DNA of 48,396 bases from a virus, in the IMG/VR virus record IMGVR_UViG_3300007523_000019, positions 1 to 48,396 of that record, one strand, 5' to 3'. Position 1 is the stretch's first letter. Each line of letters starts with the position of its first letter. The position numbers were made by a program, and so were the translations under genes. The notes under the pieces were generated by a model that saw nothing but the letters and a program-made list of their open reading frames with translations, ran no database searches and was not told where the DNA came from. Positions 2,445 to 33,476 of this stretch are shown piece after piece.

Positions 2445-2459
2445 TGTTTATCTTGCTCC

Positions 2460-3954: not shown

Positions 3955-3996
3955 CTACTTGACTGTTCAAAAAGCACAAATTCAAAATTGTATTCA

Positions 3997-4491
3997 TCAA
4001 CCAATCACAACAATATTCCAGGTTCCTGAAATCGTGCCAAATCCAGTGAAATCAATCTGAAGCTGTGTTGTATTGTGGAGAAATACCTCGCTTGGTATTA
4101 TTTGTTTATCATTATCGTCGTAAATTGTTACGCTGACGTACTTTTGATTAAGACTATGAGTGACTGACAAAATGCCCGCCGATAAGTCTACATCTGTAAA
4201 TGTTCGTCTATAGGCGACTGTTGTACTGGCAGAAAGCGTAAGTGCGGTCCAGTCGGCATTGGTTCCTGCCCAGGGTCCAACTTTCAGCGTCCAATACATC
4301 TGATCGGATTGAGTGAACACCAACATGCCAAATCGGCGACGATCATCAGGAATGGCATTTCGGGCAGTTAGGTCCGCAACAGAACGTAAGCCATCAATAC
4401 CGTAGCCCGGATCGGTTACAGCATATGTGTCAGTCGTATCTGTTGGGGCTAAAATGCCCGTTACGCTTACTGAGCCTGGAATCGCTGGCAT
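3997..4491 (-). CDS. Fibre-associated protein with shared C-terminal domain, no collagen shaft
   Basis: 164 residues. The first roughly 95 residues include DRRRFGMLVFTQSDQMYW, a pattern common in phage fibre head domains that bind neighbouring shaft subunits. The last 65 residues (FTDVDLSAGILSVTH ... GTISGTWNIVVIG) repeat the C-terminal domain of the collagen-like proteins. It therefore looks like the same architecture with the triplet shaft deleted or never acquired. It lies 12 bases after the 4504-6591 gene in the same transcription direction. The precise role is unknown. Confidence 0.75.
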   Translation of the reverse strand: MPAIPGSVSVTGILAPTDTTDTYAVTDPGYGIDGLRSVADLTARNAIPDDRRRFGMLVFTQSDQMYWTLKVGPWAGTNADWTALTLSASTTVAYRRTFTDVDLSAGILSVTHSLNQKYVSVTIYDDNDKQIIPSEVFLHNTTQLQIDFTGFGTISGTWNIVVIG

Positions 4492-4503
4492 TACATTTTA
4501 TCC

Positions 4504-6591
4504 TTACGCCACTATTATCGAGATGGCCCCGCCAAGAATGTTCTTAGAACGGTAAACACGATAATTAGTCGTTTGACTAAAAGCATTCGTGACAGATACC
4601 AGACCGTAAGACAAACTATTGGCTGTATTTGAAAAAAAAGCATCATCTGAACTACTTGCCATAGCCACATTTAAGTTAGTAGCCGCATCTTTAAAGGATG
4701 CTGGAGAGCCGAATGAAGTGGGAAAACAAAAGAACTTATAACCGCCTCCGGCATATGCAAAAGTTCCACTGTATCCGCTTGCCAATCCACTATTCGTCAA
4801 GGCTTCTATATCAGCCTCGGTGAGAGTAGTGTTTGTACTTGGTCCATAATATCTTTGCCAGAACCATGACACAGTGAATGTCGCCAAGAAATTCACTGAA
4901 TTGCTGTTGGTGCCTCTAATACTCCATTGATGAGATGCCTGACTCGTCTTTTGAATGGCCGTAGGCAAAGCAATTGCTTCCGTTCCATCATTTGCTGAAC
5001 CAGACACCAAAGTCACACTATTTGTAACATCTGAAATCAATATTGTATTGACGTTTATATTGCTGGAATTAGTTGTTGCCCATGTAAATGTTTTAGTCCC
5101 TGATATAGTGACGCCGACTTCTACACTGGTGGTTTGACCAGACATCGTAAATGAAGAAAAAGCAGGAGATTGATATGGATACAAGAGAGAATCCCACATT
5201 TGTTGCATAGTTCGAGAGTTAAATGTTGATCCTGAAGGGATGCCACCAATCGTAGAAGGGGTGGTCGCAGCGTTTGTATAAGAAACGGAAGCATCACTGC
5301 CTTGAAAACCTTGATTGCCCTGAAGACCAACATCGCCTTGATTGCCCTGAAGACCAACATCGCCTTGATTGCCCTGAAGACCAACATCGCCTTGATTGCC
5401 CTGAAAACCAACATCGCCTTGATTGCCCTGAAAACCAACATCGCCTTGAAAGCCGGTAAGTCCTTGGTTTCCTTGGTTTCCATCAATGCCCGCCAGTCCT
5501 TGAAAGCCGGTAAGTCCTTGGTTTCCTTGATTCCCATCAACGCCCGCCAGTCCTTGAAAACCAACATCGCCTTGAAAGCCGGTAAGTCCTTGGTTTCCAT
5601 CAATGCCCGCCAGTCCTTGAAAACCAACATCGCCTTGAAAGCCGGTAAGTCCTTGGTTTCCATCAATGCCCGCCAGTCCTTGAAAACCAACATCACCTTG
5701 AGAGCCAGTAAGTCCTTGGTTTCCTTGGTTTCCTTGGTTTCCATCAATGCCCGCCAGTCCTTGAAAACCAACATCGCCTTGAGAGCCAGTAAGTCCTTGG
5801 TTTCCTTGGTTTCCTTGGTTTCCATCAATGCCCGCCAGTCCTTGAGAACCAACATCGCCTTGAGAGCCAGTAAGTCCTTGGTTTCCTTGGTTTCCATCAA
5901 TGCCCGCCAGTCCTTGAAAACCAACATCACCTTGAGAGCCAGTAAGTCCTTGGTTTCCTTGGTTTCCATCAATGCCCGCCAGTCCTTGAAAACCAACATC
6001 ACCTTGAGAGCCAGTAAGTCCTTGGTTTCCTTGATTCCCATCAACGCCCGCCAGTCCTTGAAAACCAATGAACCCTTGATTTCCTTGAACTCCTTGAACT
6101 CCTGCTAGTCCTTGTGGACCTTGTTCGCCAACAACTCCCTGAAAACCTGCGCCTTGAACTCCTTGAACTCCTGCTAGTCCTTGTGGACCTTGTTCGCCAA
6201 CAACTCCCTGAAAACCTGCGCCTTGAACTCCTTGATTTCCTTGAACTCCTTGAACTCCTGCTAGTCCTTGTGGACCTTGTTCGCCAACAACTCCCTGAAA
6301 ACCTGCGCCTTGAACTCCTTGATGTCCCTGAACTCCTGTCGGCCCTTGAACTCCTGTCGGCCCTTGAACTGTCGATCCTTCGCCTTGAGCGCCTTGTGGT
6401 CCAATTCGACCTTGCGGTCCTTGACCACCAACTGTTCCAGGCGATCCTTGATGGCCTCGTGGTCCTGGATAGTTTTGTCCAACACGAGAAGAAACCACGA
6501 AGTCACGCATGTCTTGTGCGTTAATTAGACCCTGATTATTGTCAATAAACAGGGCTAACAGTTCAGCTTCGGTTCTTATCGTATTTGGCAT
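4504..6591 (-). CDS. Large collagen-like tail fibre protein
   Basis: 695 residues. The N-terminus (about 1-40: EAELLALFIDNNQGLINAQDMRDFVVSS) matches a head motif seen in many phage fibre proteins, where a short helix precedes the shaft. Collagen-like triplets run from about 42 to 431, first with Pro (GPRGHQGSPG), then as regular 24-30 residue blocks built from GFQGLAGIDGNQG and GLTGSQGDV, then as nine-residue GNQGDVGLQ blocks. Residues about 432-695 form a distinct Ser/Thr-rich globular tip unrelated to the C-domain of the neighbouring genes and probably carrying the receptor-binding or trimerising activity. The DNA repeats make the gene recombination-prone. Confidence 0.85.
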   Translation of the reverse strand: MPNTIRTEAELLALFIDNNQGLINAQDMRDFVVSSRVGQNYPGPRGHQGSPGTVGGQGPQGRIGPQGAQGEGSTVQGPTGVQGPTGVQGHQGVQGAGFQGVVGEQGPQGLAGVQGVQGNQGVQGAGFQGVVGEQGPQGLAGVQGVQGAGFQGVVGEQGPQGLAGVQGVQGNQGFIGFQGLAGVDGNQGNQGLTGSQGDVGFQGLAGIDGNQGNQGLTGSQGDVGFQGLAGIDGNQGNQGLTGSQGDVGSQGLAGIDGNQGNQGNQGLTGSQGDVGFQGLAGIDGNQGNQGNQGLTGSQGDVGFQGLAGIDGNQGLTGFQGDVGFQGLAGIDGNQGLTGFQGDVGFQGLAGVDGNQGNQGLTGFQGLAGIDGNQGNQGLTGFQGDVGFQGNQGDVGFQGNQGDVGLQGNQGDVGLQGNQGDVGLQGNQGFQGSDASVSYTNAATTPSTIGGIPSGSTFNSRTMQQMWDSLLYPYQSPAFSSFTMSGQTTSVEVGVTISGTKTFTWATTNSSNINVNTILISDVTNSVTLVSGSANDGTEAIALPTAIQKTSQASHQWSIRGTNSNSVNFLATFTVSWFWQRYYGPSTNTTLTEADIEALTNSGLASGYSGTFAYAGGGYKFFCFPTSFGSPASFKDAATNLNVAMASSSDDAFFSNTANSLSYGLVSVTNAFSQTTNYRVYRSKNILGGAISIIVA
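5306..6070 (-). repeat. Tandem DNA repeats in the collagen shaft
   Basis: Two families are visible. From about 5306 to 5452 a 27-base unit encoding GNQGDVGLQ or GNQGDVGFQ is repeated five times nearly identically. From about 5445 to 6070 longer units encoding GDVGFQGLAGIDGNQG plus GLTGSQ or GLTGFQ recur about eight times, with one to three inserted GNQ triplets. The near-identity at DNA level implies recent expansion. Confidence 0.9.
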
Positions 6592-7531: not shown

Positions 7532-7907
7532 TGGAGCCGAGGGGAGTCGAACCCCTGTGTGGCGATAACAAAATTAAAGCCTCTACACGCTTGTCTCTTT
7601 GTTCATTTGTCGGGCTTTCGGGACCACTCCGAGCAAAGGTCCATCAGCCTTATCGACCTATTTTCTCGTCTTCAGGTAAGTCGCCCACCTTCAGACCAGC
7701 AAGATTTTGCGGCTGACTTTTGAACGCTACTTGCGGCGCTTTCTCAGTCAGTGCCTAATTGCTTAGGCAGCAAGTGCTGCCGGAGCAGCACTTGGGAACT
7801 TAACAGTTTCGCCAGTTAAGGCTTGATCGAATTTTTGAGACGCCTTTCGATCAACGTCTGCGTGCCACTCTAACCTCATCCACCGCCGTCGAAACCGGGA
7901 CGGCCCC
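7532..7907 (-). ncRNA. ssrA: Transfer-messenger RNA (tmRNA)
   Basis: The molecule is about 376 nt. The 5' end GGGGCCG (7907-7901) pairs with CGGCTCC (7539-7533), leaving discriminator A at 7532. CCA is not encoded. The 5' strand carries the GGTTTCGACGG signature, and the 3' end carries a T-arm AGGGG-TTCGACT-CCCCT. Pseudoknot 1 is explicit: AGACG/CGTCT forms stem 1, and TTGATCG/CGATCAA forms stem 2. The tag frame follows it. tmRNA with SmpB rescues stalled ribosomes and tags the product for degradation. No smpB is seen in this window. A phage copy would have to use host SmpB or one encoded elsewhere. A TGGTTAACCA palindrome lies about 50 bases upstream (7957-7966). Confidence 0.95.
7763..7813 (-). 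other. tmRNA proteolysis-tag reading frame
   Basis: Resuming at GGC (7813-7811), the frame encodes GETVKFPSAAPAALAA and stops at TAA (7765-7763). The bases before the resume codon, TTAACT, and the opening GGC-GAA-ACT closely parallel the Bacillus-type start of tag (TAACT then GGC-AAA-ACT), which decided the resume codon. The tag ends in ALAA, the degron end recognised by ClpXP-type proteases. At 16 residues it is longer than the usual 8-15. Confidence 0.8.
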
Positions 7908-9640: not shown

Positions 9641-10417
9641 ATGATTTACTACCACGACCATCCAGAATATCGTATTGGCGATGAAATTCAAACTACCGCT
9701 TTAATCAAATATTTGAATCTCAAAGGACACGATGTCCATTACAAAGACTCAAATCCCTTTGTTTCAGCAATTGAACTATTCCCAGACAACCTAGTGGTTT
9801 TTGCCTCAGCAAATCATTTTGAATACCCAATTTTCGAGCCTTACAATATGTGGTTCTGGAACCCGTTGCTGCGAGAAAAGGGCATCTGGACCGATCTCAA
9901 GAATCACTACAGAGAAGAAGAAACCGATTTAGATGTAGTGTTCATTCCAGTATTGGCAGTTGGATATAACATAGAACGAGAAATATCCCCAGAGTCCGCT
10001 CTTGAAACATTCCAAGAACTATGCGGTCGCCATGAAAAGGTCTGCATGGTTATCGACGCCCGCAAAAAGCACATTATCAACATCGAGCATCCTGGTGTCA
10101 TCTACAGCAAAAATATCTACGATACGTTCAACTACGTCCGCAGAAGCAAGATATTTCTTGGCACAGACACAGGAACGACTCACTACGCCGGAGGCATCAA
10201 GCATCCAAGAATGATACTTGCGATGCCTGATGAAAAACCATTAGCAAAACACAATTGGCACAGAGAAGTAATTGCAGAACAATGCGATGAGCCAGAGATA
10301 TTGAAAATGGAATACTCATCGCTACCGTGTTGCGATCCAAAGCAATACCAATTCTTTTACATCGAAAATAACCAAGTGCCGCTCAGGAAAGTTCTGGATG
10401 CGATAGACAAAATTTAA
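9641..10417 (+). CDS. GT9/heptosyltransferase-like glycosyltransferase
   Basis: 258 residues with a GT-B-type nucleotide-sugar binding region near the C-terminus: FLGTDTGTTHYAGGIKHPR matches the G-x-D-T/S-G-x-x-H-x-A core of glycosyltransferase family 9 (ADP-heptose:LPS heptosyltransferases). It is shorter than typical heptosyltransferases (about 320-350), with a reduced N-terminal lobe. It stands alone on the plus strand and converges on the polymerase gene, sharing its last four bases (TTAA). A similar enzyme is at 47340. Possible roles are modification of host surface glycan or of virion proteins; the acceptor is unknown. Confidence 0.65.
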   Translation: MIYYHDHPEYRIGDEIQTTALIKYLNLKGHDVHYKDSNPFVSAIELFPDNLVVFASANHFEYPIFEPYNMWFWNPLLREKGIWTDLKNHYREEETDLDVVFIPVLAVGYNIEREISPESALETFQELCGRHEKVCMVIDARKKHIINIEHPGVIYSKNIYDTFNYVRRSKIFLGTDTGTTHYAGGIKHPRMILAMPDEKPLAKHNWHREVIAEQCDEPEILKMEYSSLPCCDPKQYQFFYIENNQVPLRKVLDAIDKI

Positions 10418-13008
10418 GCTGCAAACGCATCCTCTGGAGGGAGCGGGTCCATGTTTCTGAACTCAAGAACAATACTTCGACCACCACGAGCTTCGCTCAT
10501 GAATCGACTGAACAACAGCCCTTCATAGATAGGGTCTACATTCGTGATGCCCAAACAATAACACGTCAATGCGCCCACCGCCGAGCCTCGACCTGGACCG
10601 ACAGCTTGTGAACCATCACCAAACCCCAGAAGCTCTACACACACCCGTCGTGCTTCATCTGTCATCATCTTTTGAATCAAGAAGTAACTGGAGAAGCCCT
10701 TGCGGGTAATGAGACTGTATTCTTCTTTGATGCGATCTGTATATTCTCTGGTTTGTGGCAAACCACGCCACTTGAAGCCACGCATGACGAGTTCTTTGAG
10801 AGTTTCATCGGCATCTGGAATGACTGGCAATTTAAGCGAGCGATCAAGCTGAACACCCTTGGCTTTATTGCAGATTTCGACAGTCGTTCGCTTGGCTTCA
10901 CAGAAAAGCTCATAAGGCACAATATCCTTATAGTCTTTCTCCCACTTGGCATTCAGGTCTTCTTCAGACTTCATCCAAAGGTTGGCGTCCTGAAGCTCAA
11001 AGAAGTCTTGCATCTGATCCTGGGCAATAGCACTCTTGATCTCTTCCAGAGTACGTCCCGTTTGAACCATCAACATAAGCCGCTGAAAATGACTGTCTTC
11101 TGCTTGGCAGTAGTGACAATTAGAAACTACAGCCATGTTTGCCGTGAATGAATGATCTTCTTTAACTTGAAAATCATGAACATTTCCTTGGTAAACAATT
11201 TCATTGACCTCTTGAATTTTAATCAACCAATGTTCATTCTCGTAAGTCCACAAAGAAGAATTGCCTGTATCCTGTGATACACCACAAAGAAAATTGCTTA
11301 GCTTTTTCCCGGCGTCGCCAGAATAATTCAAATGCCAACATTGATTCCAATTAACATTTTTTTTCTTATCAACCGATGGAATTGACGGAAATCCCATTGC
11401 GTTTAACACAGAAGCTATCTCAAAAATCAATTTCTTGCTTGTGCTGTGAAAAGCAAAAACTCCATTCAAATAACTTCCATCACCAAACTGGTGACAAGCT
11501 ATAATTTGCTTGAATTGACTTTCACTGAATTTACCAATCCAAGTTCCACTAATATAAGGCAAATGTTTGTTAAGAGCCTTTTTGCCACATATTTTAGATA
11601 AAACCCTATTGAATACCTTGCTAGAAAATCTAATGGCAATCCCATTTTCAGAAACAGAATATTGCTTCACTTTGATGCCAAATTTGGAAAAATAAGCAAT
11701 TAAAAAATCAGCAACATCTTGTTCATGAATAGAAAGAGCAAAACCAACTTGGTACGAATTTGTGTCACTCCAACCTTCAGCAATGTACCATCCTAATACT
11801 CGACAAAATTCTTTATCTACAGGAAATAACTTCGGGATTTTAACTGTGGAATTGCCGCTAAATCCTCTTTGGGATAAATAATATCCGTCCTTCTCACGCA
11901 AGCCACATCGCAAATTATGTCTATTAGAATATGTTACTTCAGAATACAAATCTTCATCTTCGATGAATTCACTAAGATCAATGTAATCTAAATCTTGATT
12001 GGAAAAAAATGAACATTTTGAAAAATCAGGATAAACCAAACAATCGCCTTTTTTTAAATTCGATGTTTTAATCCAATTAAAATCGACCCCTTGTTTTACA
12101 TAAATTTTGTGATTTCCAGTTGATTGAAAAGAAAAAGTGCCAGCAGTTGCTTTGACTTCAAAAACTCTTTCATCATGATTTAGTTTACGACTGACTTTAA
12201 CTTCAATAGGACGATATCTATTATTATGTGTAAGAACCATGTCTCCAACATTTAAGTTTTCAATAAGTTGAAAACCTAAATGTGTCCAAATTAAAGTTCC
12301 ATCGACTAAACAGTCATTGGTGAGGATCAATTTCAAACCATACTTTTCTTTAGCCTTGATAATGAAGGCGTCATATGGTTTTTGTTTTTCAAAATCGAGC
12401 AACATGATTTCCAGCAAGTAGTGTTCCTTGCCGAACATCTCAATATATCGCTCGATCATAGCGAAAGCGGCGTCTTCACCGTGTTGGTCAAAAGCCCGTC
12501 CAACTTCACTGTTGTAGCAACAAGACGTGAAGAACAGTCCTTCCTTGTACTTCTGAAGCTGTTCGTAGTTGACACGAGGATGACGATAGAATCCCTTGGT
12601 CCACGCCCAGGATGATAGACGGACCAGATTCTTATAGCCTATTTCGTTGTAGGCAATAGCCAAAAGATGCGATCCTGCACGGCATTCCTTTTGTTCATCT
12701 TCATTTAGATCAGCCATGAACTTCTGCATGTCACCCAGACCGTTGGATTCGGGCTGAAGCCTGTTGACGTACAATTCACAGGCGAAGATGGGAGATAGGG
12801 TATCTTTTCCCTTTTTGTCATTCATCTTGTCACAGGCTTTGATTTGACGAGGGATGGCCCCCAACATGCCGTGATCTGAGATGGTCAAAAACTTTTGATT
12901 GATGAGTGGCGCACGAGTCGCATATTCCTCAACCATGCCGTAGCCATCGAGGGTGCTGAAATCCGTATGAAGGTGTAAATGTTCAAATCCGCAAATTTCT
13001 AGCGTCAT
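10414..13008 (-). CDS. dnaE: DNA polymerase III alpha N-terminal fragment (PHP domain) with intein
   Basis: 864 residues, of which 233-630 are an intein; the spliced protein is 466 residues. The start carries the PHP signature EHLHLHTDFSTLDGYG (His 10, 12, 14) and LTISDHG (Asp45, His46). After the intein the extein resumes with CHYCQAEDSHFQRLMLMVQTG, matching the DnaE region after TND. Near the end is VGPGRGSAVGALTCYCLGI, the conserved GPGRGS segment. The protein then stops about 40 residues later at EDAFAA. The PDxDxDF catalytic motif and the whole remainder of palm, thumb, fingers and beta-binding regions, about 700 residues in bacterial DnaE, are missing. The next gene is on the other strand, so no continuation lies here. 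It is either half of a split polymerase or a truncated relic. Confidence 0.85.
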   Translation of the reverse strand: MTLEICGFEHLHLHTDFSTLDGYGMVEEYATRAPLINQKFLTISDHGMLGAIPRQIKACDKMNDKKGKDTLSPIFACELYVNRLQPESNGLGDMQKFMADLNEDEQKECRAGSHLLAIAYNEIGYKNLVRLSSWAWTKGFYRHPRVNYEQLQKYKEGLFFTSCCYNSEVGRAFDQHGEDAAFAMIERYIEMFGKEHYLLEIMLLDFEKQKPYDAFIIKAKEKYGLKLILTNDCLVDGTLIWTHLGFQLIENLNVGDMVLTHNNRYRPIEVKVSRKLNHDERVFEVKATAGTFSFQSTGNHKIYVKQGVDFNWIKTSNLKKGDCLVYPDFSKCSFFSNQDLDYIDLSEFIEDEDLYSEVTYSNRHNLRCGLREKDGYYLSQRGFSGNSTVKIPKLFPVDKEFCRVLGWYIAEGWSDTNSYQVGFALSIHEQDVADFLIAYFSKFGIKVKQYSVSENGIAIRFSSKVFNRVLSKICGKKALNKHLPYISGTWIGKFSESQFKQIIACHQFGDGSYLNGVFAFHSTSKKLIFEIASVLNAMGFPSIPSVDKKKNVNWNQCWHLNYSGDAGKKLSNFLCGVSQDTGNSSLWTYENEHWLIKIQEVNEIVYQGNVHDFQVKEDHSFTANMAVVSNCHYCQAEDSHFQRLMLMVQTGRTLEEIKSAIAQDQMQDFFELQDANLWMKSEEDLNAKWEKDYKDIVPYELFCEAKRTTVEICNKAKGVQLDRSLKLPVIPDADETLKELVMRGFKWRGLPQTREYTDRIKEEYSLITRKGFSSYFLIQKMMTDEARRVCVELLGFGDGSQAVGPGRGSAVGALTCYCLGITNVDPIYEGLLFSRFMSEARGGRSIVLEFRNMDPLPPEDAFAA
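11119..12312 (-). mobile_element. Intein with in-frame LAGLIDADG homing endonuclease in DnaE
   Basis: 398 residues. It begins with Cys (CLVDGTLIWT) directly after extein TND and ends AVVSN before extein Cys (CHYC). Block B is STGNH (Thr65-x2-His68). Two LAGLIDADG helices are visible, VLGWYIAEGW at about 172-181 and IACHQFGDGSY at about 271-281. The C-terminal blocks are NVHDFQVKEDHSFTANMAVVSN. The penultimate residue is Ser instead of the usual His, which is tolerated in some inteins. The insertion site is within the PHP domain at an invariant Asn-Asp/Cys-His-Tyr junction. Both catalytic acidic positions of the endonuclease (Glu and Asp) are present, so it may still be mobile. Confidence 0.9.
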
Positions 13009-14592: not shown

Positions 14593-14752
14593 CTATTCTC
14601 TCAGCGTGTGACAGTGCATATATCGCACAATCTGGATGTTCTTCGACTACTCTGACCTTTATTCCAAGCTCGATCAAGACGAATTGGAGCCTAGACATAA
14701 ATTCATAAGAACTTTCTTCCTCATATACAGTCAATACTTTTGACTCATCCAC
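14567..14752 (-). CDS. Small hypothetical protein between SpoVR and ClpP-like genes
   Basis: 61 residues starting at GTG 14752 (M/VDESKVLTVYEEE), with AAGGAG about 10 bases upstream inside the end of spoVR. It overlaps the spoVR stop by 8 bases and the protease start by 26 bases. The product is a compact alpha/beta-looking sequence (FMSRLQFVLIELGIKVRVVEEHPDCAIYAL). No family is recognised. An internal ATG (MSRLQF) is an alternative start. Confidence 0.6.
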   Translation of the reverse strand: MDESKVLTVYEEESSYEFMSRLQFVLIELGIKVRVVEEHPDCAIYALSHAERIDGKEKEFN

Positions 14753-16337
14753 GCTTGATGTGCTCCTTACGAGACACAAGCTCCACGTCCTTTGTGCTGT
14801 CGGTCCCGTAACAGCAATAAACTTTCTCATTGCCATCTTCATCTTCAGATGCCAGATAGACATCTTCTCCCCACACTGCCCGCAGTGCGGTCAATACATC
14901 AAAGACATATGGCTCGTAAATATCACGACCATCAAAGTTGTGCTGAAGGAACATAGCTCCCTTGCCACGATAGTTCGGCTCTGTCAGGCGAATATCCGGC
15001 AAGCCGCCATTCAAATGCCTTCGGAGCAGAAGACGCTTGATGTCTTTGAACTCACGATTGTCAATTTTGAATTCACCATTCGGGAAGTGTTTCCAGTGGA
15101 AGTATTCTTGTTCACGGCAAAAGTCTTCAGTAAAGAACTCATGGAGCAAAGTGAAGTCGTCGTAATATTTGCGAACCTCGAAAATCTTCTCTTTACCCAA
15201 TCCGGCTTTCGTATCCCACTTTTCTTTGATTCGGATGTCGGTACATTCATCCCATTCAGGTCCGAACTGTCCCTTGTCCCAGCGGCTACGAATATCCCTA
15301 AGCAGGTAATATCCCAGCTTATATGGGTTCATAGAATACTTGCCGCCCAATACACCCATCTTGTGATCGGCGTATTCGATAATGCCGCAATCGTGACTCT
15401 TCTGTCCAAGTGCTACGAAACCCTGCTCGGCCATAATCACCGAGTCAGTCATCGACGCCCATCCTTCATTTATGGTCTTGGTCTGACGTTGCGGGAAGAA
15501 GTAAATTGCTTCTTCATATAACATCGACACAATATCGGCCTGCCACGGTTTCAGTGGTGCGTTATCTCTTAAATAAGCAAGGATGTTTTTGGTAGGCTCC
15601 TTAAAGACGCCAATTTCATCAGCGACATCTTGCTTAGAGATACGCTCGTTTTCTCGATCACGGAAATCCTTTGTGTTTAAGAAAGGCTCCATGTACATAC
15701 GGTCTTTGTTTACCGTCAATCGTCTTGGATGACGGTATGTTCTCTCGTCCCGAATGTTCTTTTCAGAAACGACTCGATCAGTCCAGGCTTCTGCTCCGTC
15801 GATCAAAGTTTCAAGCCTCATAACCCAATCCAAAAACTCAATAACACGTTCCTTGCCCCAACGAGCCATGTACTTACGAATGCGAGTGCCGTGATTGGCC
15901 ATCTTATTCAGCATGTTCGTATCGGTAGCGCTGAAGTGAATATTGTTCTTGAAAAAGTCATTGTGTCCTGTAGCGTGGGCAACAACGGTCAAGTGATCGA
16001 GCAGAGTATTGGAACTGAGATTGTAGATGTAGCACGGGTTGGTATTGATTACCATCTCGTAAATCTTGTGCATCCCAAACTCATATCCTCGCTGAAGTTC
16101 TTCATATTCCATACCGAAAGACCAGTGCGGGAAACGCACAGGAAAACCACCATAGGCGGCAATTTCACTGATCTCGTCGTAAGTCAACAACTGAACTACA
16201 GTTGGATAGAAGTCCAGACCCCAATCTCGGCAAGCCTGAAGAATCTTTGGAATATACATCTTCAGTTCTGGCGACAATTGCACGCCAGGAACCGTATTGT
16301 TGCCAAGTAGCATTGGCGCACCGTGCATGAATCCCAT
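14745..16337 (-). CDS. spoVR: SpoVR family protein
   Basis: 530 residues, close to bacterial SpoVR/YcgB (about 470-510). The N-terminal region has DWGLDFYPTVVQLLTYDEISEIAAYGGFPVRFPHW and EYEELQRGYEFG, and the middle has HATGHNDFFKNNIHF, all diagnostic of the family; the His-rich HATGHNDFF and the acidic residues around it look like a possible metal site. Its ATG shares one base with the stop of the YeaH-like gene (TAATG), with AGAGGA upstream. In bacteria SpoVR works with the kinase PrkA/YeaG and the vWA protein YeaH; all three are encoded here in one direction. The biochemical activity of the family is not established. Confidence 0.92.
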   Translation of the reverse strand: MGFMHGAPMLLGNNTVPGVQLSPELKMYIPKILQACRDWGLDFYPTVVQLLTYDEISEIAAYGGFPVRFPHWSFGMEYEELQRGYEFGMHKIYEMVINTNPCYIYNLSSNTLLDHLTVVAHATGHNDFFKNNIHFSATDTNMLNKMANHGTRIRKYMARWGKERVIEFLDWVMRLETLIDGAEAWTDRVVSEKNIRDERTYRHPRRLTVNKDRMYMEPFLNTKDFRDRENERISKQDVADEIGVFKEPTKNILAYLRDNAPLKPWQADIVSMLYEEAIYFFPQRQTKTINEGWASMTDSVIMAEQGFVALGQKSHDCGIIEYADHKMGVLGGKYSMNPYKLGYYLLRDIRSRWDKGQFGPEWDECTDIRIKEKWDTKAGLGKEKIFEVRKYYDDFTLLHEFFTEDFCREQEYFHWKHFPNGEFKIDNREFKDIKRLLLRRHLNGGLPDIRLTEPNYRGKGAMFLQHNFDGRDIYEPYVFDVLTALRAVWGEDVYLASEDEDGNEKVYCCYGTDSTKDVELVSRKEHIKRG

Positions 16338-17560
16338 TATGCTTCCTCTCTAATTGTGGCTGGATTGCCGAGCAACTTTTTGATCGCATCCATGATTTGC
16401 TCGTTCCGTTCGTCTTCGCTCAAAGTTGGTGGACTGTAATATCCTGCTGTCGATTTACCTTCAGTCGTCGGCCCGATAGAAACAGTTCTTACATATTCCT
16501 TGTCGAGACGACCAGCTTTGATTGCCTCGTCAACCTGATGTTTTACCGACCCATCATAAGTATATGACAATATCTGGGTGATGCCGGTGAAGTTCACCAC
16601 TTCAGGAGTGAACTCGTCCTGAAGAGTCTTGATGAAAGTCTCATTATCATCACCCCAATTTTCACCGTCAGTAAAGTAAAACACATAAATGTTCCACTTG
16701 TTCGGCGGGTAACGATTCTCAAACTGTTTGGTGATGAATTTCAATGCTGAGGAGCATGTGGTGCCGCCACCAAACCGATACTTATAGAATTTTTCTTCAT
16801 CGACTTCCATAGCCATCGAGTCGTGCCACACATACAGACGATCAACTCGGTCATAAAAGCGACGAATCCAAGTATCAATCCACCAAGACATATCACTGAT
16901 AATATCGCACTTGGCGTCGTCCATGCTGCCAGAGCCGTCACGAGCAAAGATCACCAACGCATTGCTGGATGGAATCTTAATCTCATTGAACTGACGGTAT
17001 CGCTTGTCTTCTTTGATGGGCTGCAATACTCTCACCGGGTCAGGAAGACCAGGAACATACTTGAGATTATTGAGAGTGCCTTCAGCAGCCTGACGCTTGA
17101 GAGTCTGCATCAGCGTGCGTCTATTGTGACGTAAAGATTCAGGTCCAATCAACGAAATGTTGTTGTATTTAATCTTGATTTCGTCATAGATTTCGTTTGG
17201 CTTCTTCTTCAGGTTCGGAAGTTGAAGTTCTTCCTTCATGAACTTGAGAACTTCTTCAAGGTCCAGGTTAATGGTGATGCCTTCGGTTTCGCCTTCTCCA
17301 GCCCCATTGCCTTTTCCTGGCTTTGGATCACGACCAATAACGTCACCATCTTTTCCAGGTCCACGACCAACACCATCATCGCTACTGCCATAAACAATAT
17401 GCGGGATGTCGATCTTAGGAATGGTGATTGCTATCTTGCCATTTTTACCACGATTTCGGACGATCTGGCCGCTCTTGATGAACTTCTTCAAAGCTCTCCG
17501 AATACGGCCAGATACTACATCTCTGAAATCTTTGTGGTCTTCTTCAATTCTGCGTGGCAT
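16337..17560 (-). CDS. yeaH: YeaH/DUF444 family protein with von Willebrand A domain
   Basis: 407 residues. The N-terminal part (MPRRIEEDHKDFRDVVSGRIRRALKKFIK) and the Gly-rich linker (GVGRGPGKDGDVIGRDPKPGKGNG) are typical of DUF444. The C-terminal half is a vWA-like domain with an intact MIDAS loop DGSGSMDDAK, a second element GGGTTCSSAL and FYFTDGENWGDDNE. GGAGG 6 bases before ATG 17560 supports the start. The family partners the Ser/Thr kinase YeaG/PrkA in enterobacterial stress survival. Here it sits between three small genes and spoVR, overlapping spoVR by one base. Confidence 0.92.
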   Translation of the reverse strand: MPRRIEEDHKDFRDVVSGRIRRALKKFIKSGQIVRNRGKNGKIAITIPKIDIPHIVYGSSDDGVGRGPGKDGDVIGRDPKPGKGNGAGEGETEGITINLDLEEVLKFMKEELQLPNLKKKPNEIYDEIKIKYNNISLIGPESLRHNRRTLMQTLKRQAAEGTLNNLKYVPGLPDPVRVLQPIKEDKRYRQFNEIKIPSSNALVIFARDGSGSMDDAKCDIISDMSWWIDTWIRRFYDRVDRLYVWHDSMAMEVDEEKFYKYRFGGGTTCSSALKFITKQFENRYPPNKWNIYVFYFTDGENWGDDNETFIKTLQDEFTPEVVNFTGITQILSYTYDGSVKHQVDEAIKAGRLDKEYVRTVSIGPTTEGKSTAGYYSPPTLSEDERNEQIMDAIKKLLGNPATIREEA

Positions 17561-17597
17561 TTATCCCTCCAAGATTCGGATAGACTTGTTCGGGTAA

Positions 17598-17780
17598 TTA
17601 TTTGTTACCGTAATTGAAGTCTCTGATCTGGATCAGGACTTCATCTTTTTGTTCTTCGGACAACGTGTCCGGGTCAGCATTAGAAAACTGCCGAATGATA
17701 GTTTCCCGACTGGCCCGCCGATTAACCAAGAAGCGTCGTTCCTCTTCGGCTGTGATTTCTTTAATCTCAAGCTGTTGCAT
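17598..17780 (-). CDS. Small hypothetical protein
   Basis: 60 residues, charged and probably helical (EIKEITAEEERRFLVNRRASRETI). AGGA 6 bases before ATG 17780 supports translation. It lies in the prkA-yeaH interval with two other small genes; no family is recognised. The Arg-Arg-Ala-Ser segment would fit a basophilic kinase site, which is only suggestive given PrkA nearby. Confidence 0.65.
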   Translation of the reverse strand: MQQLEIKEITAEEERRFLVNRRASRETIIRQFSNADPDTLSEEQKDEVLIQIRDFNYGNK

Positions 17781-17790
17781 ACTGAATCCT

Positions 17791-18006
17791 TTAGGGTGCG
17801 ATCAGTTCTACGCCGAATGACATATCGTCTGGGTCAGTCATGAAATCTCGAACAAGCATATTCATCAAGAAGTCTATTTGTTCATCATTGAGAGAAGCAA
17901 ACAAGTCACCCAAGGTGCCATCTTCGCCCCATACTTCAAGACCGATTTCGTCTATCTCTTTGAACAATTGTTTTTTCTTGGCGCAATCAAGCCAATGGTT
18001 ATTCAT
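17791..18006 (-). CDS. Small acidic protein, MNNHWL leader
   Basis: 71 residues from ATG 18006, which lies in the last codons of the upstream small gene (8-base overlap). The protein begins MNNHWLDCAKKKQLF and continues acidic (EVWGEDGTLGDLFASLNDEQ). Its first six residues and the surrounding 20 bases repeat those of the gene at 18199. No family is recognised. It sits between prkA and yeaH. Confidence 0.7.
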   Translation of the reverse strand: MNNHWLDCAKKKQLFKEIDEIGLEVWGEDGTLGDLFASLNDEQIDFLMNMLVRDFMTDPDDMSFGVELIAP

Positions 18007-18199
18007 GAGATCGTCCAATAAAACTCTTAAACGCTTCGTATATTTTCAAATCGTTCTTGACCAAACGTCCTTCAATATAAAAACCATCCTTATTCATTGC
18101 TATCATTTCTTTGCCATCGATGATAAACTTTATGTTGCCAGCGATACCAAAATTGTCGCTATCTTTGTTTCTCTTTGATTCTAGCCAATGATTATTCAT
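17999..18199 (-). CDS. Small hypothetical protein, MNNHWL leader
   Basis: 66 residues starting MNNHWLESKRNKDSDNF. The middle (GNIKFIIDGKEMIAMNKDGFYIEGRLV) is beta-rich and resembles small phage proteins with a beta-sandwich register, but no family is assigned. It ends inside the start of the next gene. The N-terminal hexapeptide is identical to that gene's. Confidence 0.7.
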   Translation of the reverse strand: MNNHWLESKRNKDSDNFGIAGNIKFIIDGKEMIAMNKDGFYIEGRLVKNDLKIYEAFKSFIGRSHE

Positions 18200-18289
18200 G
18201 AGATTGCCTAAAAATTAAATGAGTTAAAAATGAAATGAGAGAAGGGGATGGACTCTTGTGAATCCATCCCATTAAACCCTCAGACGAGA

Positions 18290-20368
18290 TTAGTCATCTT
18301 CGGCCAAATCGCCACGGGCGAAGATGCCGCCCACGAAGTCCAGAACATCAGTTGCCGACCGCTCGTTATACCCGTATTGCTTGATGAGCCGGGTCTTGAT
18401 AGCGTCGATCTTTTCCTGAATGTCCTTATCCACAACTGTTGCACCACTGACGTTCAAGGCACTCAGCTTGATGGTGTCCTTAACGTCCTCGAACAGCTTG
18501 GCTTCGAGAGCCTTGCGGAGCTTAGGATTGCTGTCCCAGCGGAACTGCTTGCCCTTGTGAGCCAAATCACCGATGAACGCTGCGATCTGACGGCGGAAGT
18601 CTTCACAGCCCGTATCCGGGATTTGAATCTTCTCTTCAATCTGTCGCATCAGTCGCTCATCCGGCTTGCGGTCTTGACCCGTGATTGGGTCTTTCATCTT
18701 CGACTTATTGATGAATGCCATCACGTTGTCGATATAGTTCGTGCAAAGCCGAATGATTGCGTCTTCGTCGCCCACAAGAGCCTTCTGTACCTCAGCCTTC
18801 AAGATTTCGGTCAGCTTCTTGAGAGCCAAGTCGATGCAGGAGATGTAACGACCGACCTGTTCCTTGTTGGACAATAGAGAAGAATGTTCCAGCCCATCCC
18901 GGAGTTCATTCAACACCATGAACATATTCACATAGTCATGGTTATTGGCCAAGCAATTGGAAATCTTATCCTGAAGGTATCGCACGGACACACCGCCCTG
19001 CATACCCTCATCAGGATACTTATCCTTCATTTCCTTGACGGCATCTTCTGTCCAACCAGCCAATAGCTTGTTGTCATACAGTTCGGCCTTCTCGATCAAA
19101 GAAATTTTGCCATCCTTGTCGTCGGCCAAACGGGTCAATACACTCCACAGAGCAGCAATTTCCAATGTGTGAGGAGCAATATGCTGCTTCACCTTGCCAG
19201 GACCATAATCCTTCTCCAAAATGCGGAGTTCTTCAGACCACTTGAGGGTGTAAGGAACGTCGATCTTGGTGGTACGGTCACGGAATGCTTCCATGTACTG
19301 ATTACTCTTGAGTTTCTGGAATTCTGGGTCGTTTGTGTGAGCTATGATCGCTTCATCAATACTGACCTGAGAGAACTTCTTCGGCTTGATGCTTTGCTCT
19401 TGCGAGGCACCCAAGAGGTCGTACAAGAACGCAGTATCGAGCTTCAGGGCTTCGATAAACTCGATGATGCCACGATTTCCGACACAGAATTCACCATCAA
19501 AGGAGAAGGCTCGTGGATCGGAGTCGGAACCAAAGTTGCCGATCTGACGGAAGTTGATGTCACCAGTAAGTTCGGTGCTGTCCTGATTCTTCTCGTCCTT
19601 CGGCTGGAAGGTTGCAATACCGCAACGATCCGCTTCGCTGTAGACCTTACGAACAACCCTGATGTGCTTCTCAAGCACTTGCTCCAGGTCGCCATCATAC
19701 TTCTTCAAGAAATAAGTCATGAACTTATTACACAGCGGATTCAACTCATCTGCACAACGCAGCGTATAAAGGTCTTGCTGCCGTTCTTCAGGAGAAATCT
19801 CCTCAAAAATACGATTCAATTCATCAATAATAGGTTGACGAACTTCGACTGGAAGCAACTTGAGAGGCTGCTCGTGCATCGGGCAAGGACATTCTGCTTC
19901 TGTGTACACACCATCTACACCAGTTGGTAGATTGACCCACTTGTAGGAGTACCATGCTCCTTGGTCTGTGCGGGAGAACTTCTCCATGCTTCGCTTGAGC
20001 AAGCGACACAGCGTTGACTTCGAGCTACCAACAGGACCGTGCAGCAAAAGAATACGGCGTTCTGTTCCGTAGCCACCAGCGGCTCCCTTGATGAACTTGA
20101 CCAGGGCGTCCTTCATTGGCGTTAAACCAATGATTGGATAATCTGGATCATCGAAGAAGTAATAGTTGGTATAGGTTTTTCGGTACTCTTCAGTCGTACC
20201 GGAACCCTTCTCCATAATCATGTCATAAAGTGTCTGCCAAGCGTTGCGAAGCAGAAACGGCTGCTTGTAACAAAGCTCCAGATACTCCCCGAAAGTCATT
20301 TCGGCGTGCAACGCACGGAATTGATTTCGGTTAAAGTTGCCAATTGCTTTCTTCAGGGTTGTTGTCAT
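18290..20368 (-). CDS. prkA: PrkA-type serine/threonine protein kinase (AAA+ fold)
   Basis: 692 residues from ATG 20368 (MTTTLKKAIG), with GGAGG 4 bases upstream. The P-loop HGPVGSSKST is at about 110-119, preceded by PIIGLTPMKDALVKFIKGAA, and the conserved GLE-like QYMEAFRDR and EELRILEKDYGPGK segments of PrkA/YeaG follow. Length is slightly above the bacterial norm (about 640). In E. coli YeaG acts with YeaH in nitrogen-starvation and stationary-phase survival, and in Bacillus PrkA affects sporulation. The kinase leads a run of same-strand genes to yeaH, spoVR and the ClpP-like gene. An inverted repeat 85 bases upstream (20453-20471) is a candidate operator. Confidence 0.92.
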   Translation of the reverse strand: MTTTLKKAIGNFNRNQFRALHAEMTFGEYLELCYKQPFLLRNAWQTLYDMIMEKGSGTTEEYRKTYTNYYFFDDPDYPIIGLTPMKDALVKFIKGAAGGYGTERRILLLHGPVGSSKSTLCRLLKRSMEKFSRTDQGAWYSYKWVNLPTGVDGVYTEAECPCPMHEQPLKLLPVEVRQPIIDELNRIFEEISPEERQQDLYTLRCADELNPLCNKFMTYFLKKYDGDLEQVLEKHIRVVRKVYSEADRCGIATFQPKDEKNQDSTELTGDINFRQIGNFGSDSDPRAFSFDGEFCVGNRGIIEFIEALKLDTAFLYDLLGASQEQSIKPKKFSQVSIDEAIIAHTNDPEFQKLKSNQYMEAFRDRTTKIDVPYTLKWSEELRILEKDYGPGKVKQHIAPHTLEIAALWSVLTRLADDKDGKISLIEKAELYDNKLLAGWTEDAVKEMKDKYPDEGMQGGVSVRYLQDKISNCLANNHDYVNMFMVLNELRDGLEHSSLLSNKEQVGRYISCIDLALKKLTEILKAEVQKALVGDEDAIIRLCTNYIDNVMAFINKSKMKDPITGQDRKPDERLMRQIEEKIQIPDTGCEDFRRQIAAFIGDLAHKGKQFRWDSNPKLRKALEAKLFEDVKDTIKLSALNVSGATVVDKDIQEKIDAIKTRLIKQYGYNERSATDVLDFVGGIFARGDLAEDD

Positions 20369-20452
20369 TTTTCCTCCAAGGAGCATATATCCGGTACGAG
20401 CAAGATGGAATATAGCCGCTGAATATTTCTCGTTCAAGACCCAAAATACTAA

Positions 20453-29553: not shown

Positions 29554-30264
29554 ATGGCATGTAATCCTCCATATTGCTTGGGAACTGGCAGCTATTGCGG
29601 CTGCAACTGCAAGTGTTGCCCACCATGTCCATGCTACACAAGCTGGACCTATGTGTATTTGTGTGGAACAAGCTCAAGTGTTTATCCGCCCGGATGTGAT
29701 TGTGCGCCTATTGCTGTGCCTGCTCCCCTTCGTGCGCCTGAATTAGATGTTGATTTTCCAGACTTTGATTATCAAGCATATCTGTTTGATATAGAAGACA
29801 GTGATGGATATGTTTATGCGCAAGCAACCACTGGATCAGTGCCAGACACTTCAGTCCCGACTTGCTCTATTCCATGCTCAACTATTACTATCACCCTGTC
29901 AACATCAGGCTGCTGTCTGTATGGATCAGGATTTTCTTTTACGGCAATTGGTGCTGGAACAGTGTCACTGTCAGGATGCAGCGATGCTTGCGGCGCTCCC
30001 TTCGGTTGCTCCATAAACGGAGGAGGAACCAGCGTATCTGTGGGAGATTGTGGTGGCGTAGGAGTGTCTATTACACCGCCATCTGCGCATTGCTGCTCAT
30101 GCTGTTTGGTGAGCAGCACTGGAAGTCTATTAGGTGAGTGCAGTGGCTCGGCTTCATTTGCTGCGTTCAAGCAACGCTCAGTGAGAACTGGCGTCCAGAA
30201 AACCTACATCAGCAAACAGAAGCTATTAGAAAGAATCACCAAGACTCGCAAAATTCGCCGTTAA
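29554..30264 (+). CDS. Cys-rich, Gly/Ser/Thr-rich structural protein
   Basis: 236 residues with dense Cys clusters (YCGCNCKCCPPCPCY near the N-terminus, CCLYG, CCSCC near residue 180). The middle third is acidic (ELDVDFPDFDYQAYLFDIEDSDGY). The later part is Ser/Thr/Gly/Val-rich and likely beta structure, and the final 30 residues are strongly basic (ISKQKLLERITKTRKIRR). No named domain is recognised. It is translated directly after the 29290 gene and converges on the helicase with a shared TTAA. A virion or surface role is a guess. Confidence 0.65.
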   Translation: MACNPPYCLGTGSYCGCNCKCCPPCPCYTSWTYVYLCGTSSSVYPPGCDCAPIAVPAPLRAPELDVDFPDFDYQAYLFDIEDSDGYVYAQATTGSVPDTSVPTCSIPCSTITITLSTSGCCLYGSGFSFTAIGAGTVSLSGCSDACGAPFGCSINGGGTSVSVGDCGGVGVSITPPSAHCCSCCLVSSTGSLLGECSGSASFAAFKQRSVRTGVQKTYISKQKLLERITKTRKIRR

Positions 30265-33200
30265 AGCAAAGCGAACACCTTGGCAGATTCAAACACTTCC
30301 TTAGCTGCGTCTACCTTCATGGATTTACCCGTACTGTTGACAATCTTCTTGAAGTTCTCAAAGTCCATATCAGCAACCGATTCAACAGTCTTAAATCCAG
30401 CTTCATAGAGCTTCGTAGCTCGTGCTTTGCCAATGTTTGCCAAACGACAAAGATCAACTAAGTGAACTGGAACCCCATTGGTAATACGCCCCTCAAGAAT
30501 CTTGAAGTAACTTTCACGTTGCCAATTGCCGCCAAATGTATCGAGCGACTGAAGAACCTGTGACAGCCGATTGAAATCGAACTGAAGATTCCTTTGCGTT
30601 GTGGCACAGGCTTGGCTGTTCACGCCATTTAACAAATTGAAGTAGCAAAAACTAGCCTTCAAAGAGGCATCATTGAAGAACTTCCCTGGCATCAAGGTCC
30701 GCACCTTTGCGGCATAAAGACTCATCTCTTCTTTCTCAATACGAGAAACTATATTCATTCTCTGACCATCAATATTTCCCAGAGCCGTTGACACGAAGTA
30801 ATCGTCGTCCTCTTTATTGTCTTGGAATAAATTCTTGAAGTTAAAATACAAGTCCGAGACATCAAATGGACTGAAGTAAAACATGCTGGAAACTTTCCCA
30901 ATAGGTCGGCAAATCCATTTTTCATCCGTCTCACCTTCAACAGCATCTTCTTTCCAAACCGCACTGCATTTCCGCAGTAAGTCTAAAGTCTGGTCTACAA
31001 CAGTTTCATCCAGAGCCTTGTTTTGGAAATAAGCCAACGACCGCTTATACCAAGCATGAACATCATCGGTTGTTGACACAGTGCCGTGATGAATTTCACT
31101 AACAAGATGGAAAGCTAACACCTTGTATTTGTCACCAACTTTTTCTAAAAGCTGGGATTCAATACGATTCGGCTTGCTGAATTTCTGACGATATTTTGCC
31201 TCTTCACTTTCAGGAACGAGGATGTACGCATCACCCATCGGATCAATTCCCAGCCGACCAGATCGACCGACCATCTGAAGAATATCGTGAGTTTCAACCT
31301 CGCCAATTCCTCGATTGACGCCCAAAATAATCACACGTCGAGCAGGAAGGTTTAAGCCCCATGCCAAAGTCGATGTAGCCACAATGACCCGTAGCTTAGG
31401 ATCAGTTTTGAAACGATCTTCCACCTTAGCACGCTCATCAGCTTGCAAATCAGCATTGTGAAATTGAGCTTCAATGCCCAATGATCGCAAATTTTGCTTC
31501 ATCAATTCGCCAGTACGCTTTGTATGGGCGAAGACAAGGAACTTGTCGTCTGGATACCATTCAATAATTTCAAGGGCTTTATTGACCTTCTCTTCTTCGA
31601 CTTGATCGTATCTGCCTACGTCGTAATAAGACTCATAGTGAAGAGTCAAAGGCACTGGTCGATACTTGGACCGCAACATGAAAGTTTCACGCTTGGTCAA
31701 AGAATAACTAATCCAGTCGGCAATCTCTTCTACATTAGGCATCGTTGCTGAAAGCAACACGAGACGAGCCTTGGGATTGATCTCTGTGAACTTCATGAGT
31801 CCAACTTCCAGGTGATCTCCACGACCTGGAACAGTCAACAAGTGACTATTATGGACAAGAACTCCATCTGCAAAAAAATTGCAATCTTCAAAACAATCAG
31901 ATTCAACTTCTAAGTCGCAACACCAAGATTCCTCTGAATCCATGTCTCCGTCCGGCTGTACATCCTGTCCCAATTCAACCGACACTCCTTGGCCCCACAA
32001 AGCATGACCTTCCTGACTTGATGAAGACTGCGGCGATCTGCGATGAATTTCTGACCACACATCGAACAAAATATCTGCTCCATTTTTGGCAGCACCTTGT
32101 AATTCATGTCTGAAATTATTTCGTGACGAACCAGTTCTTGAAAACGATCCCGACCCTTCGCTGGAAATCTGAGTTGCCAATATTGTTTTGTCGGATAGGC
32201 TTCGCAAGCCACCGACCATTTCGTTTCCAACCAATGCGCTAACAATTCCACTTCTGATTTGGGAAAGCCCTCGGTGTGAATTGCCATCATACTTGGACCC
32301 TGGCTTCCGTCGTCCATGTACCACACCGCCAATGCCACCGGATCGGTGATCTCGTCCAACCACTGAGAATTTACTATTTTCTTCCCTCGTGGATAACACA
32401 TCGAATGTATTGCCAACAACATTTTGCTTGACAATGTGTTGAATCTGCACACTTCCTTTCCGTACCCTTGGTTCGGTTTGATTTGTGGAGGGGTGCCAAC
32501 CAATCGCTTCAACTCGTTGTACTTCCATTCGACTAAAGCCTTTTGAGCCGAACACTGTTGAACCCTCAATCTTGCTGACTTTCCGTGCGGAAGTCGAGCT
32601 ATCGAACCGTCTCCCAGTAAAGTTCCCAATATTACTTGTTTTTCTCTCTTCGTTAATTCCTCGTACATAAATAACATCTCCCTCTTGAATGTCTTTAGAG
32701 GGAATATAACCACGATTTTCACACCACACCAAATGATTTGATGTCGCAGAAATATGCCCACCGTCATAATATATGGTGTGCCATCTTCTTTTTAACAACT
32801 TTTTCTGACGAGCAACTATTTTTTTGAATACAATTTGTTTGGTTGAGTGATTCATGGATGCAACTTTAACATCCAGATTTTTGTCAATGATGTCTCCAAT
32901 AGAAATTGGACCTTGATCTGTTTCAATTATTGCATTTGGAGACAAACATTCATCAATAATTAACGTGCCAACATCAAGAAGCCAATTATTTTGTTCGGCC
33001 TTATGATTGCGACTGCGGTGATTTAACATTTCCGAAGTCATGATGATGAGATTGGCATCATTCAATTCTTTGGCACGCTCTTTTGTGAGCCTATAATCAC
33101 CTGTGCAGATAGAAATTTTCTGGTCGGCGAAGTGATAATTCTCGTTTTTCCAATCGGTGATTTTCTCACGAGCCAATGCACGCAAAGGAGCAAGGAACAT

Positions 33201-33476
33201 GCCCTTGCCACCACGTTTACGAATTTCTTGCGCAAGAAACATTTCAGCTACGACTGTCTTGCCTGCTGAAGTCATAGCGGCGATAAGACCGTTTACATCC
33301 TTGTCATAAAAATCCATAATCCGACTTTGAACCGGATTGAACGTCTCAAACTTCCATTTGGCGTAAGGATAATCAGATGTAGCTACAACAACAGGCTGAT
33401 CCTCAGCTTTGATTACTACAGGCACTTTTTTCTCCTTGCGATTACTTTTGGTTGTACTTGTTTTCTTCTGCGTCAT
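30261..33476 (-). CDS. Hel308/Ski2-like ATP-dependent helicase with intein in motif II
   Basis: 1071 residues, with an intein at 177-543; the spliced enzyme is 704 residues, close to Hel308. Motif I is AAMTSAGKT (about 67-73), Ia is APLRALAREK, motif II is the DESH box split as LIIDE-intein-SHLLT, motif III is LLSATMPNVEEI, motif V is VIVATSTLAWGLNLPARRV, and motif VI is QMVGRSGRLG. The C-terminus has a helix-hairpin-helix VDLCRLANIGKARATKLYEAGF. Hel308-type enzymes unwind lagging strands at stalled forks; archaeal and some large-phage genomes encode them. GGAGG precedes ATG 33476. It overlaps the upstream gene by 35 bases. Confidence 0.9.
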   Translation of the reverse strand: MTQKKTSTTKSNRKEKKVPVVIKAEDQPVVVATSDYPYAKWKFETFNPVQSRIMDFYDKDVNGLIAAMTSAGKTVVAEMFLAQEIRKRGGKGMFLAPLRALAREKITDWKNENYHFADQKISICTGDYRLTKERAKELNDANLIIMTSEMLNHRSRNHKAEQNNWLLDVGTLIIDECLSPNAIIETDQGPISIGDIIDKNLDVKVASMNHSTKQIVFKKIVARQKKLLKRRWHTIYYDGGHISATSNHLVWCENRGYIPSKDIQEGDVIYVRGINEERKTSNIGNFTGRRFDSSTSARKVSKIEGSTVFGSKGFSRMEVQRVEAIGWHPSTNQTEPRVRKGSVQIQHIVKQNVVGNTFDVLSTREENSKFSVVGRDHRSGGIGGVVHGRRKPGSKYDGNSHRGLSQIRSGIVSALVGNEMVGGLRSLSDKTILATQISSEGSGSFSRTGSSRNNFRHELQGAAKNGADILFDVWSEIHRRSPQSSSSQEGHALWGQGVSVELGQDVQPDGDMDSEESWCCDLEVESDCFEDCNFFADGVLVHNSHLLTVPGRGDHLEVGLMKFTEINPKARLVLLSATMPNVEEIADWISYSLTKRETFMLRSKYRPVPLTLHYESYYDVGRYDQVEEEKVNKALEIIEWYPDDKFLVFAHTKRTGELMKQNLRSLGIEAQFHNADLQADERAKVEDRFKTDPKLRVIVATSTLAWGLNLPARRVIILGVNRGIGEVETHDILQMVGRSGRLGIDPMGDAYILVPESEEAKYRQKFSKPNRIESQLLEKVGDKYKVLAFHLVSEIHHGTVSTTDDVHAWYKRSLAYFQNKALDETVVDQTLDLLRKCSAVWKEDAVEGETDEKWICRPIGKVSSMFYFSPFDVSDLYFNFKNLFQDNKEDDDYFVSTALGNIDGQRMNIVSRIEKEEMSLYAAKVRTLMPGKFFNDASLKASFCYFNLLNGVNSQACATTQRNLQFDFNRLSQVLQSLDTFGGNWQRESYFKILEGRITNGVPVHLVDLCRLANIGKARATKLYEAGFKTVESVADMDFENFKKIVNSTGKSMKVDAAKEVFESAKVFALL
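31910..32668 (-). CDS. LAGLIDADG homing endonuclease nested out of frame in the helicase intein
   Basis: 252 residues from ATG 32668 (MYEELTKREKQ). Two LAGLIDADG helices are obvious: VILGTLLGDGS (about 14-24) and LAVWYMDDGS (about 110-119). The downstream pattern (EVELLAHWLETKW, QLRFPAKGRDRFQELV) is that of intron-type LAGLIDADG enzymes. A C-terminal extension has CSMCG and CGAKEC, a possible zinc site. It ends in its own TAG (31912-31910) inside the coding of intein block F. The frame is +1 to the helicase/intein frame. A GAGGGAG at 32684-32678 sits 9 bases before the ATG, supporting independent translation. The in-frame upstream extension to 32767 is not needed. Confidence 0.9.
   Translation of the reverse strand: MYEELTKREKQVILGTLLGDGSIARLPHGKSARLRVQQCSAQKALVEWKYNELKRLVGTPPQIKPNQGYGKEVCRFNTLSSKMLLAIHSMCYPRGKKIVNSQWLDEITDPVALAVWYMDDGSQGPSMMAIHTEGFPKSEVELLAHWLETKWSVACEAYPTKQYWQLRFPAKGRDRFQELVRHEIISDMNYKVLPKMEQIFCSMCGQKFIADRRSLHQVRKVMLCGAKECRLNWDRMYSRTETWIQRNLGVAT
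32678..32684 (-). promoter_or_regulatory. Internal Shine-Dalgarno for the nested endonuclease
   Basis: GAGGGAG on the minus strand, 9 bases upstream of ATG 32668 and inside the helicase intein coding sequence. It decides the start of the nested gene; an ATG at 32677 is too close to be served by it. Confidence 0.6.

Follow-up and report, generated by a model that had tools for sequence, protein, structure and literature searches.

Organization of the helicase locus

The DNA analyzed here is the 48,396-nucleotide virus record IMGVR_UViG_3300007523_000019, referred to below as the window, in which an open reading frame (ORF) on the minus strand encodes a superfamily 2 (SF2) DExH helicase together with an intein, and in which a homing endonuclease gene lies inside the intein-coding DNA in another frame. 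The elements of this locus are listed below with window coordinates; here and in the text, a slash within a motif marks the insertion or splice point, and pLDDT is the predicted local distance difference test score.

30261..33476, minus strand: SF2 DExH helicase ORF, intein included, 1071 amino acids (aa) without internal stop; PF00270 (5.5e-19) and PF00271 (1.3e-15)
31848..32948, minus strand: intein of 367 codons in the DE/SH helicase motif, with Cys1, block B TSNH, C-terminal VHN and +1 Ser
32667..32948, minus strand: N-terminal splicing domain of the intein, single-coding; identity 70% and 57% in the related inteins L002 and L004, respectively
31913..32660, minus strand: stop-free stretch of about 245 codons over which the intein frame gives a shadow translation, with disorder predicted (pLDDT about 25)
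31848..31914, minus strand: C-terminal splicing segment of the intein, (L)EVESDCFEDCNFFADGVLVHN, with the endonuclease TAG inside its Leu-Glu codons (TTA GAA)
31910..32668, minus strand: homing endonuclease, out of frame (+1 relative to the intein), 252 aa plus TAG, LAGLIDADG_2, with a C-terminal zinc-finger-like C-x2-C...C-x4-C
32676..32684, minus strand: AGAGGGAGA region resembling a Shine-Dalgarno site, preceding the endonuclease ATG and located in the codons for the intein's conserved EGD motif

By its motifs, profile and fold the helicase insertion is a canonical intein that would be expected to splice. It runs from the Cys1 codon (32948-32946) to the Asn367 codon (31850-31848) and ends in ...FFADGVLVHN. 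The block B signature T-x-x-H is present as TSNH in the window, THNH in L002 and TLDH in L004, and the C-terminal Asn is followed by Ser or Cys (VHN/S in the window, VHN/C in L002 and L004, VSN/C in the terminase intein L022). The PF14890 profile covers both ends of the window intein (E=3.7e-5), its 24 bits lying under the 35.8 cut-off that is exceeded by the homologous inteins of L022 and of the cultured phages FoX3, Clown and S-EIVl. Foldseek comparison of the splicing ends of the intein model, which is of low confidence, returned HINT matches including the RecA, DnaX and NrdJ-1 inteins. The DE/SH insertion is exactly in frame: empty alleles are found in L006-L010 and in phages FoX1 and FoX2, the intein-less helicase homologues are 699 aa long in L006 and 674 aa in L010, and L006 carries the exact empty site GATGAA/AGTCAC.

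The nested ORF matches LAGLIDADG_2 (PF03161, E=3.8e-32) and contains both LAGLIDADG helices (GTLLGDG and VWYMDDG), and the catalytic residues D20 and D119/D120 are invariant among 31 sequences. The AlphaFold2 (AF2) model of the enzyme has a pLDDT of 93.2, and its fold matches are I-WcaI and I-SceI (E about 1e-14), which are also the closest solved structures by sequence; unlike the window enzyme both are intron-encoded, and its C-terminal zinc-finger-like part falls outside the matched residues 5-193. The product is a complete I-SceI-like LAGLIDADG_2 endonuclease, which would be expected to cleave the intein-less allele. A preliminary description of this DNA had already read from it canonical intein ends in one frame and a 252-residue, two-helix LAGLIDADG protein of an intron or free-standing type in the +1 frame, all of which is borne out by the ORFs, the motifs, PF03161 and the likeness to I-SceI and I-WcaI.

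The two reading frames are tightly interlocked. The nested ATG lies inside codons of the intein motif GDVIYV (T[AT G]TA) and the nested TAG inside codons of the intein CDLE (T[TA G]AA), so that both start and stop fall within conserved splicing-domain codons, and their positions coincide in the three helicase inteins (window, L002 and L004). Judged by its position in the sequence, the nested gene fills exactly the site taken by in-frame endonuclease domains in other inteins (for the insertion site, see PMC6801210).

The intein frame is kept open and the enzyme frame is constrained

To estimate how many stops the overlap should contain, the same endonuclease protein was recoded 20,000 times with phage codon usage and stops in the intein frame were counted. 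The window has 0 stops where 19.3 are expected (minimum 7 in 20,000 recodings), and the same holds for L002, L004, L022 and L023, with 0 stops each versus 20.3, 22.0, 18.1 and 15.3 expected. Xanthomonas phage FoX3 has 0 stops (4.6 expected), as do the two loci with HNH enzymes described below (5.9 expected for Clown and 14.8 for S-EIVl). Conversely, no stop-free alternate frame was found among about 100 non-nested relatives in a survey of the endonuclease family across viral, phage, plasmid and prokaryotic sequence, where 1 to 37 stops occur over the domain; every stop-free member of that survey is flanked by intein ends. The suggestion in the preliminary description that the intein frame stays open across about 250 codons, and does so by selection, is supported by the absence of stops from the window and from six divergent LAGLIDADG examples in all. 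Since the intein interrupts a catalytic motif, loss of the open helicase frame would not be tolerated, and stops would be purged by selection.

Substitutions point to the enzyme as the constrained product. Between lineages at 54-70% protein identity the enzyme frame displays a strong third-position bias, differences at codon positions 1/2/3 numbering 66/38/123 between the window and L002 and 124/89/189 between L022 and L023. Identity in the intein frame over the shared DNA is 31-37%, about that of ordinary shadow frames in exteins when differing divergence is allowed for. The codon-position comparison proposed earlier gives a third-position excess in the enzyme frame, and an intein shadow that does not exceed the ordinary level. 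We conclude from these patterns that the enzyme frame is under purifying selection, and that the intein frame over the overlap is constrained mainly to have no stops.

The nesting recurs at eight loci and in cultured phages

The same nesting was found at eight loci, the window included, with two enzyme families and three cultured phages (FoX3, Clown and S-EIVl). L002 (seen again as L003) and L004 are helicase inteins at the same site as in the window, with endonuclease identities of 71% and 56%, respectively. L022 and L023 are terminase inteins with longer zinc-finger-bearing nested enzymes of 380 and 348 aa, and FoX3 carries, in its helicase (gp40), an intein of about 314 residues with a nested LAGLIDADG enzyme. 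The remaining two loci are as follows.

Gordonia phage Clown (L143), 2348-3502: terminase intein with an out-of-frame HNH ORF, reached through intein homology and not through the enzyme
Synechococcus phage S-EIVl (L145), 2020-3030: terminase intein with an out-of-frame HNH ORF, reached through the Clown HNH

The nested gene is in relative frame +2 in FoX3 and +1 in the seven other loci (window, L002, L004, L022, L023, Clown and S-EIVl). In the database records of all three cultured phages only the host protein is annotated over the nested enzyme, a warning that such genes are missed by annotation. The preliminary description had envisaged either homologues with the same nesting or homologues that all carry the endonuclease in frame; the former were found, the endonuclease being out of frame in L002, L004 and the cultured phages.

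As the FoX3 endonuclease is placed apart in the endonuclease tree and uses another frame, and as the HNH cases belong to another enzyme family, the nesting would have three origins or more, unless genes for HNH and LAGLIDADG enzymes were swapped for one another inside existing overprinted inteins. Scans with the FoX3 and terminase endonucleases as queries recovered almost nothing beyond themselves. For the DNA-pattern scans an alignment of closer endonucleases was used, a profile alignment of eight diverse endonucleases having proved unusable.

FoX3 also offers evidence of mobility. The helicases of FoX1, FoX2, FoX5, Murka and M29 have no intein and are 97-99% identical to that of FoX3. Thirteen FoX3-specific substitutions lie within -474 to +219 of the insertion, against 0 over the 575 and 959 bp next to this interval (1534 bp; naive probability 3e-7), a tract consistent with the footprint expected of homing with co-conversion. 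These nearly identical phages without the intein share the host strain of FoX3, which makes homing, splicing and translation of the nested gene accessible to direct test.

A probable cis-splicing intein with a separate homing gene

In our reading, which we consider very probable, a phage DExH helicase here hosts a mobile intein that splices in cis, and the homing endonuclease of this intein is encoded by a gene of its own, out of frame on the shared DNA. Reading of the mRNA in the helicase frame would give a precursor made of the N-splicing domain, an unstructured shadow peptide of about 245 residues and the C-splicing domain; the intein would fold across the shadow peptide and excise it along with itself. 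Initiation at the internal ATG in the GD-x-I-Y-V codons (+1) would yield from the same mRNA a free monomeric I-SceI-like LAGLIDADG endonuclease, terminated by the TAG within the conserved D-L-E codons. This enzyme would then cut intein-less helicase alleles at DE/SH, and repair would copy the entire intein. Sequence comparison shows the architecture of this scheme, its recurrence, the avoidance of stops, the purifying selection acting on the enzyme frame and the homing-like insertion in FoX3, whereas splicing, internal initiation and cleavage are inferred.

Several observations weigh against it. AF2 gave a poor model of the complete window intein (mean pLDDT 39, the splicing parts mostly at 48-75), and block F is unusual, with a four-residue insertion and a Cys where relatives have His or Asn. 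No signal of co-conversion was detected in the window relative to L006-L009, intein-less helicases that have the exact empty site and are 92-93% identical to the window helicase over the first 177 residues, because the background divergence from them is too high. Internal initiation, finally, is not uniformly supported. The Shine-Dalgarno sequence that the preliminary description had attributed to the nested gene is real in the window, where GAGGGAG forms a duplex of -8.5 kcal/mol equalled at 1.1% of nearby positions, but it is not conserved among the nested loci, being good in the window and L004 only and weak in L002, L022, L023 and FoX3. Coupling, leaderless-type initiation or frameshifting are possible in the loci with no good Shine-Dalgarno. 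A hairpin predicted at 32676-32705 (minus strand), pairing the nested Shine-Dalgarno with an upstream CCCUCU, is neither significant (z -0.28) nor conserved, and a promoter scan within the window intein returned few weak matches that make no case for a promoter.

The most durable alternative, unlikely in our view though not negligible, is that the endonuclease is made by programmed ribosomal frameshifting as an extension of the N-half of the intein. The enzyme frame of the window is open 5' of the ATG, giving a 285-aa ORF, and the lack of a good Shine-Dalgarno in several loci would also fit; against this, the place of the ATG is conserved in the three helicase inteins, the Shine-Dalgarno is good in two of them, and in L004 the enzyme frame opens just one codon before the conserved ATG.

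The nested ORF could also be an unexpressed relic with the intein alone mattering, and weak Shine-Dalgarno sequences in several loci would agree with that, but the conserved catalytic Asp residues, the third-position bias described above and the recent homing-like insertion in FoX3 make such a relic highly improbable. We give still less credit to removal of the insert at the RNA level as an intron, with the open frame incidental. I-SceI-like endonucleases are typically encoded in introns, and these are the nearest solved relatives of the enzyme; however, the host frame is open at all eight loci, which removal as RNA would not require, intein splicing motifs stand on both sides in every case, and no Rfam intron family matched the window even at permissive thresholds, nor the seven other nested loci at gathering scores. 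An assembly or sequencing error, in which two indels shifted an ordinary in-frame endonuclease out of frame, was raised in the preliminary description and would restore the position usual for this family in inteins (KLEP7, LR756508 and actinobacterial RecA), but is scarcely credible given that the same design occurs with two endonuclease families in L002, L004, L022, L023 and three independently sequenced cultured phages, that 0 stops are present in the intein frame where such a pair of indels should have left about 19, and that enzyme start and stop occupy identical places in all three helicase inteins.

Origin and relation to known systems

The preliminary description favored invasion of a mini-intein by a free-standing gene. 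In its favor, one free-standing gene (L024) is placed among the nested helicase and terminase enzymes in the endonuclease tree (support 97/79), and a free-standing source is possible; on the other hand many inteins carry the family in frame, and a split-intein state exists. Insertion of a gene bringing about 19 stops into the host frame would at first disrupt the host protein, and a split-intein or low-stop intermediate would therefore be needed. A split-intein state with a matching layout, at the same helicase insertion site, is found in two phages:

Pectobacterium phages Ymer and Abuela (L127, L128), 1644-4754: split-intein helicase, DE/C site, with a LAGLIDADG_2 gene overlapping both halves

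Many stops interrupt the host frame of this split-intein fractured gene, which is annotated as three overlapping coding sequences with no intein. The stop-free overlapping state and the stop-containing split state may interconvert, in either direction.

Other fractured genes were observed. In L138 (3542-6168) a DNA ligase gene is fractured by a split intein, and in L142 (2269-5366) probably a helicase gene; in both, the intervening ORF is on the opposite strand and overlaps the end of the N-half. Campylobacter phages, and probably Bacillus phage G and Yersinia phage fHe-Yen9-02, likewise have fractured genes whose halves are separated by other ORFs.

The chances seem to us even that overprinted inteins form a general class, in which endonuclease genes of two families or more, LAGLIDADG_2 and HNH among them, repeatedly entered out of frame, the host frame was kept or made open, the result interconverts with split-intein fractured genes, and the stop-free overlap shields the selfish gene from frameshift decay. 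Such protection would follow because any frameshift in the overlap also breaks an important phage gene. If this is true, the overprinted state would be a cis-splicing stage between free-standing endonuclease genes, split inteins and classical large inteins.

In the customary description an intein is a splicing domain fused to an in-frame endonuclease. Large inteins with in-frame LAGLIDADG_2 domains (KLEP7 RNA ligase, actinobacterial RecA) share with the window the enzyme family and the insertion point in the splicing fold, but there the endonuclease is fused to the intein and translated as part of it. Dassa and colleagues reportedly described in 2009 fractured genes, in which split inteins have a free-standing endonuclease gene between their halves. 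They resemble the window in that the endonuclease has an ORF of its own, located where inteins canonically insert into phage genes for replication and repair; however, both the host gene and the intein are broken there and trans-splicing is needed, whereas here a single open 1071-aa ORF contains a one-chain intein.

The ShiLan insertion carries an out-of-frame HNH in a methylase insertion for which its authors report no self-splicing domains and propose retention in the protein (PMC11855218). It is likewise phage-borne and mobile and has a homing endonuclease ORF in another frame than a stop-free host frame, but in the window intein splicing domains flank the nested gene and the enzyme is a LAGLIDADG. 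The nested HNH of Clown matches, with 35% identity over 125 residues, the hidden HNH of the ShiLan-bearing Mycobacterium phage Mantra (L147), which lies out of frame in the methylase.

No earlier account of an out-of-frame endonuclease within a cis-splicing intein was found in the searchable open literature, which leaves most subscription papers uncovered. The arrangement is best read as a new form between ordinary inteins, fractured genes and the ShiLan insertion: at eight loci, which represent two enzyme families, the intein remains a single chain and the endonuclease has its own, overlapping gene. It offers a possible intermediate stage in how split inteins arose and a natural example of selection-forced gene overlap.

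Other features of the window

The in-frame DnaE intein that the preliminary description had used for comparison is present in the ORF at 10414-13008 (minus strand; PF14890, E=2.2e-8). This DnaE-like ORF stops after 864 aa, short of most of the catalytic domain of the polymerase, and the remaining polymerase part may be split off, frameshifted or located elsewhere. The phage contig also encodes a Gp23-type capsid protein, UvsX, neighboring homologues of SpoVR, DUF444 and PrkA (14745-20437, minus strand), a phage-borne tmRNA (7532-7907, minus strand) with the tag AAPAALAA, and a cluster of three collagen-repeat tail-fibre-like proteins (1131-6591, minus strand).
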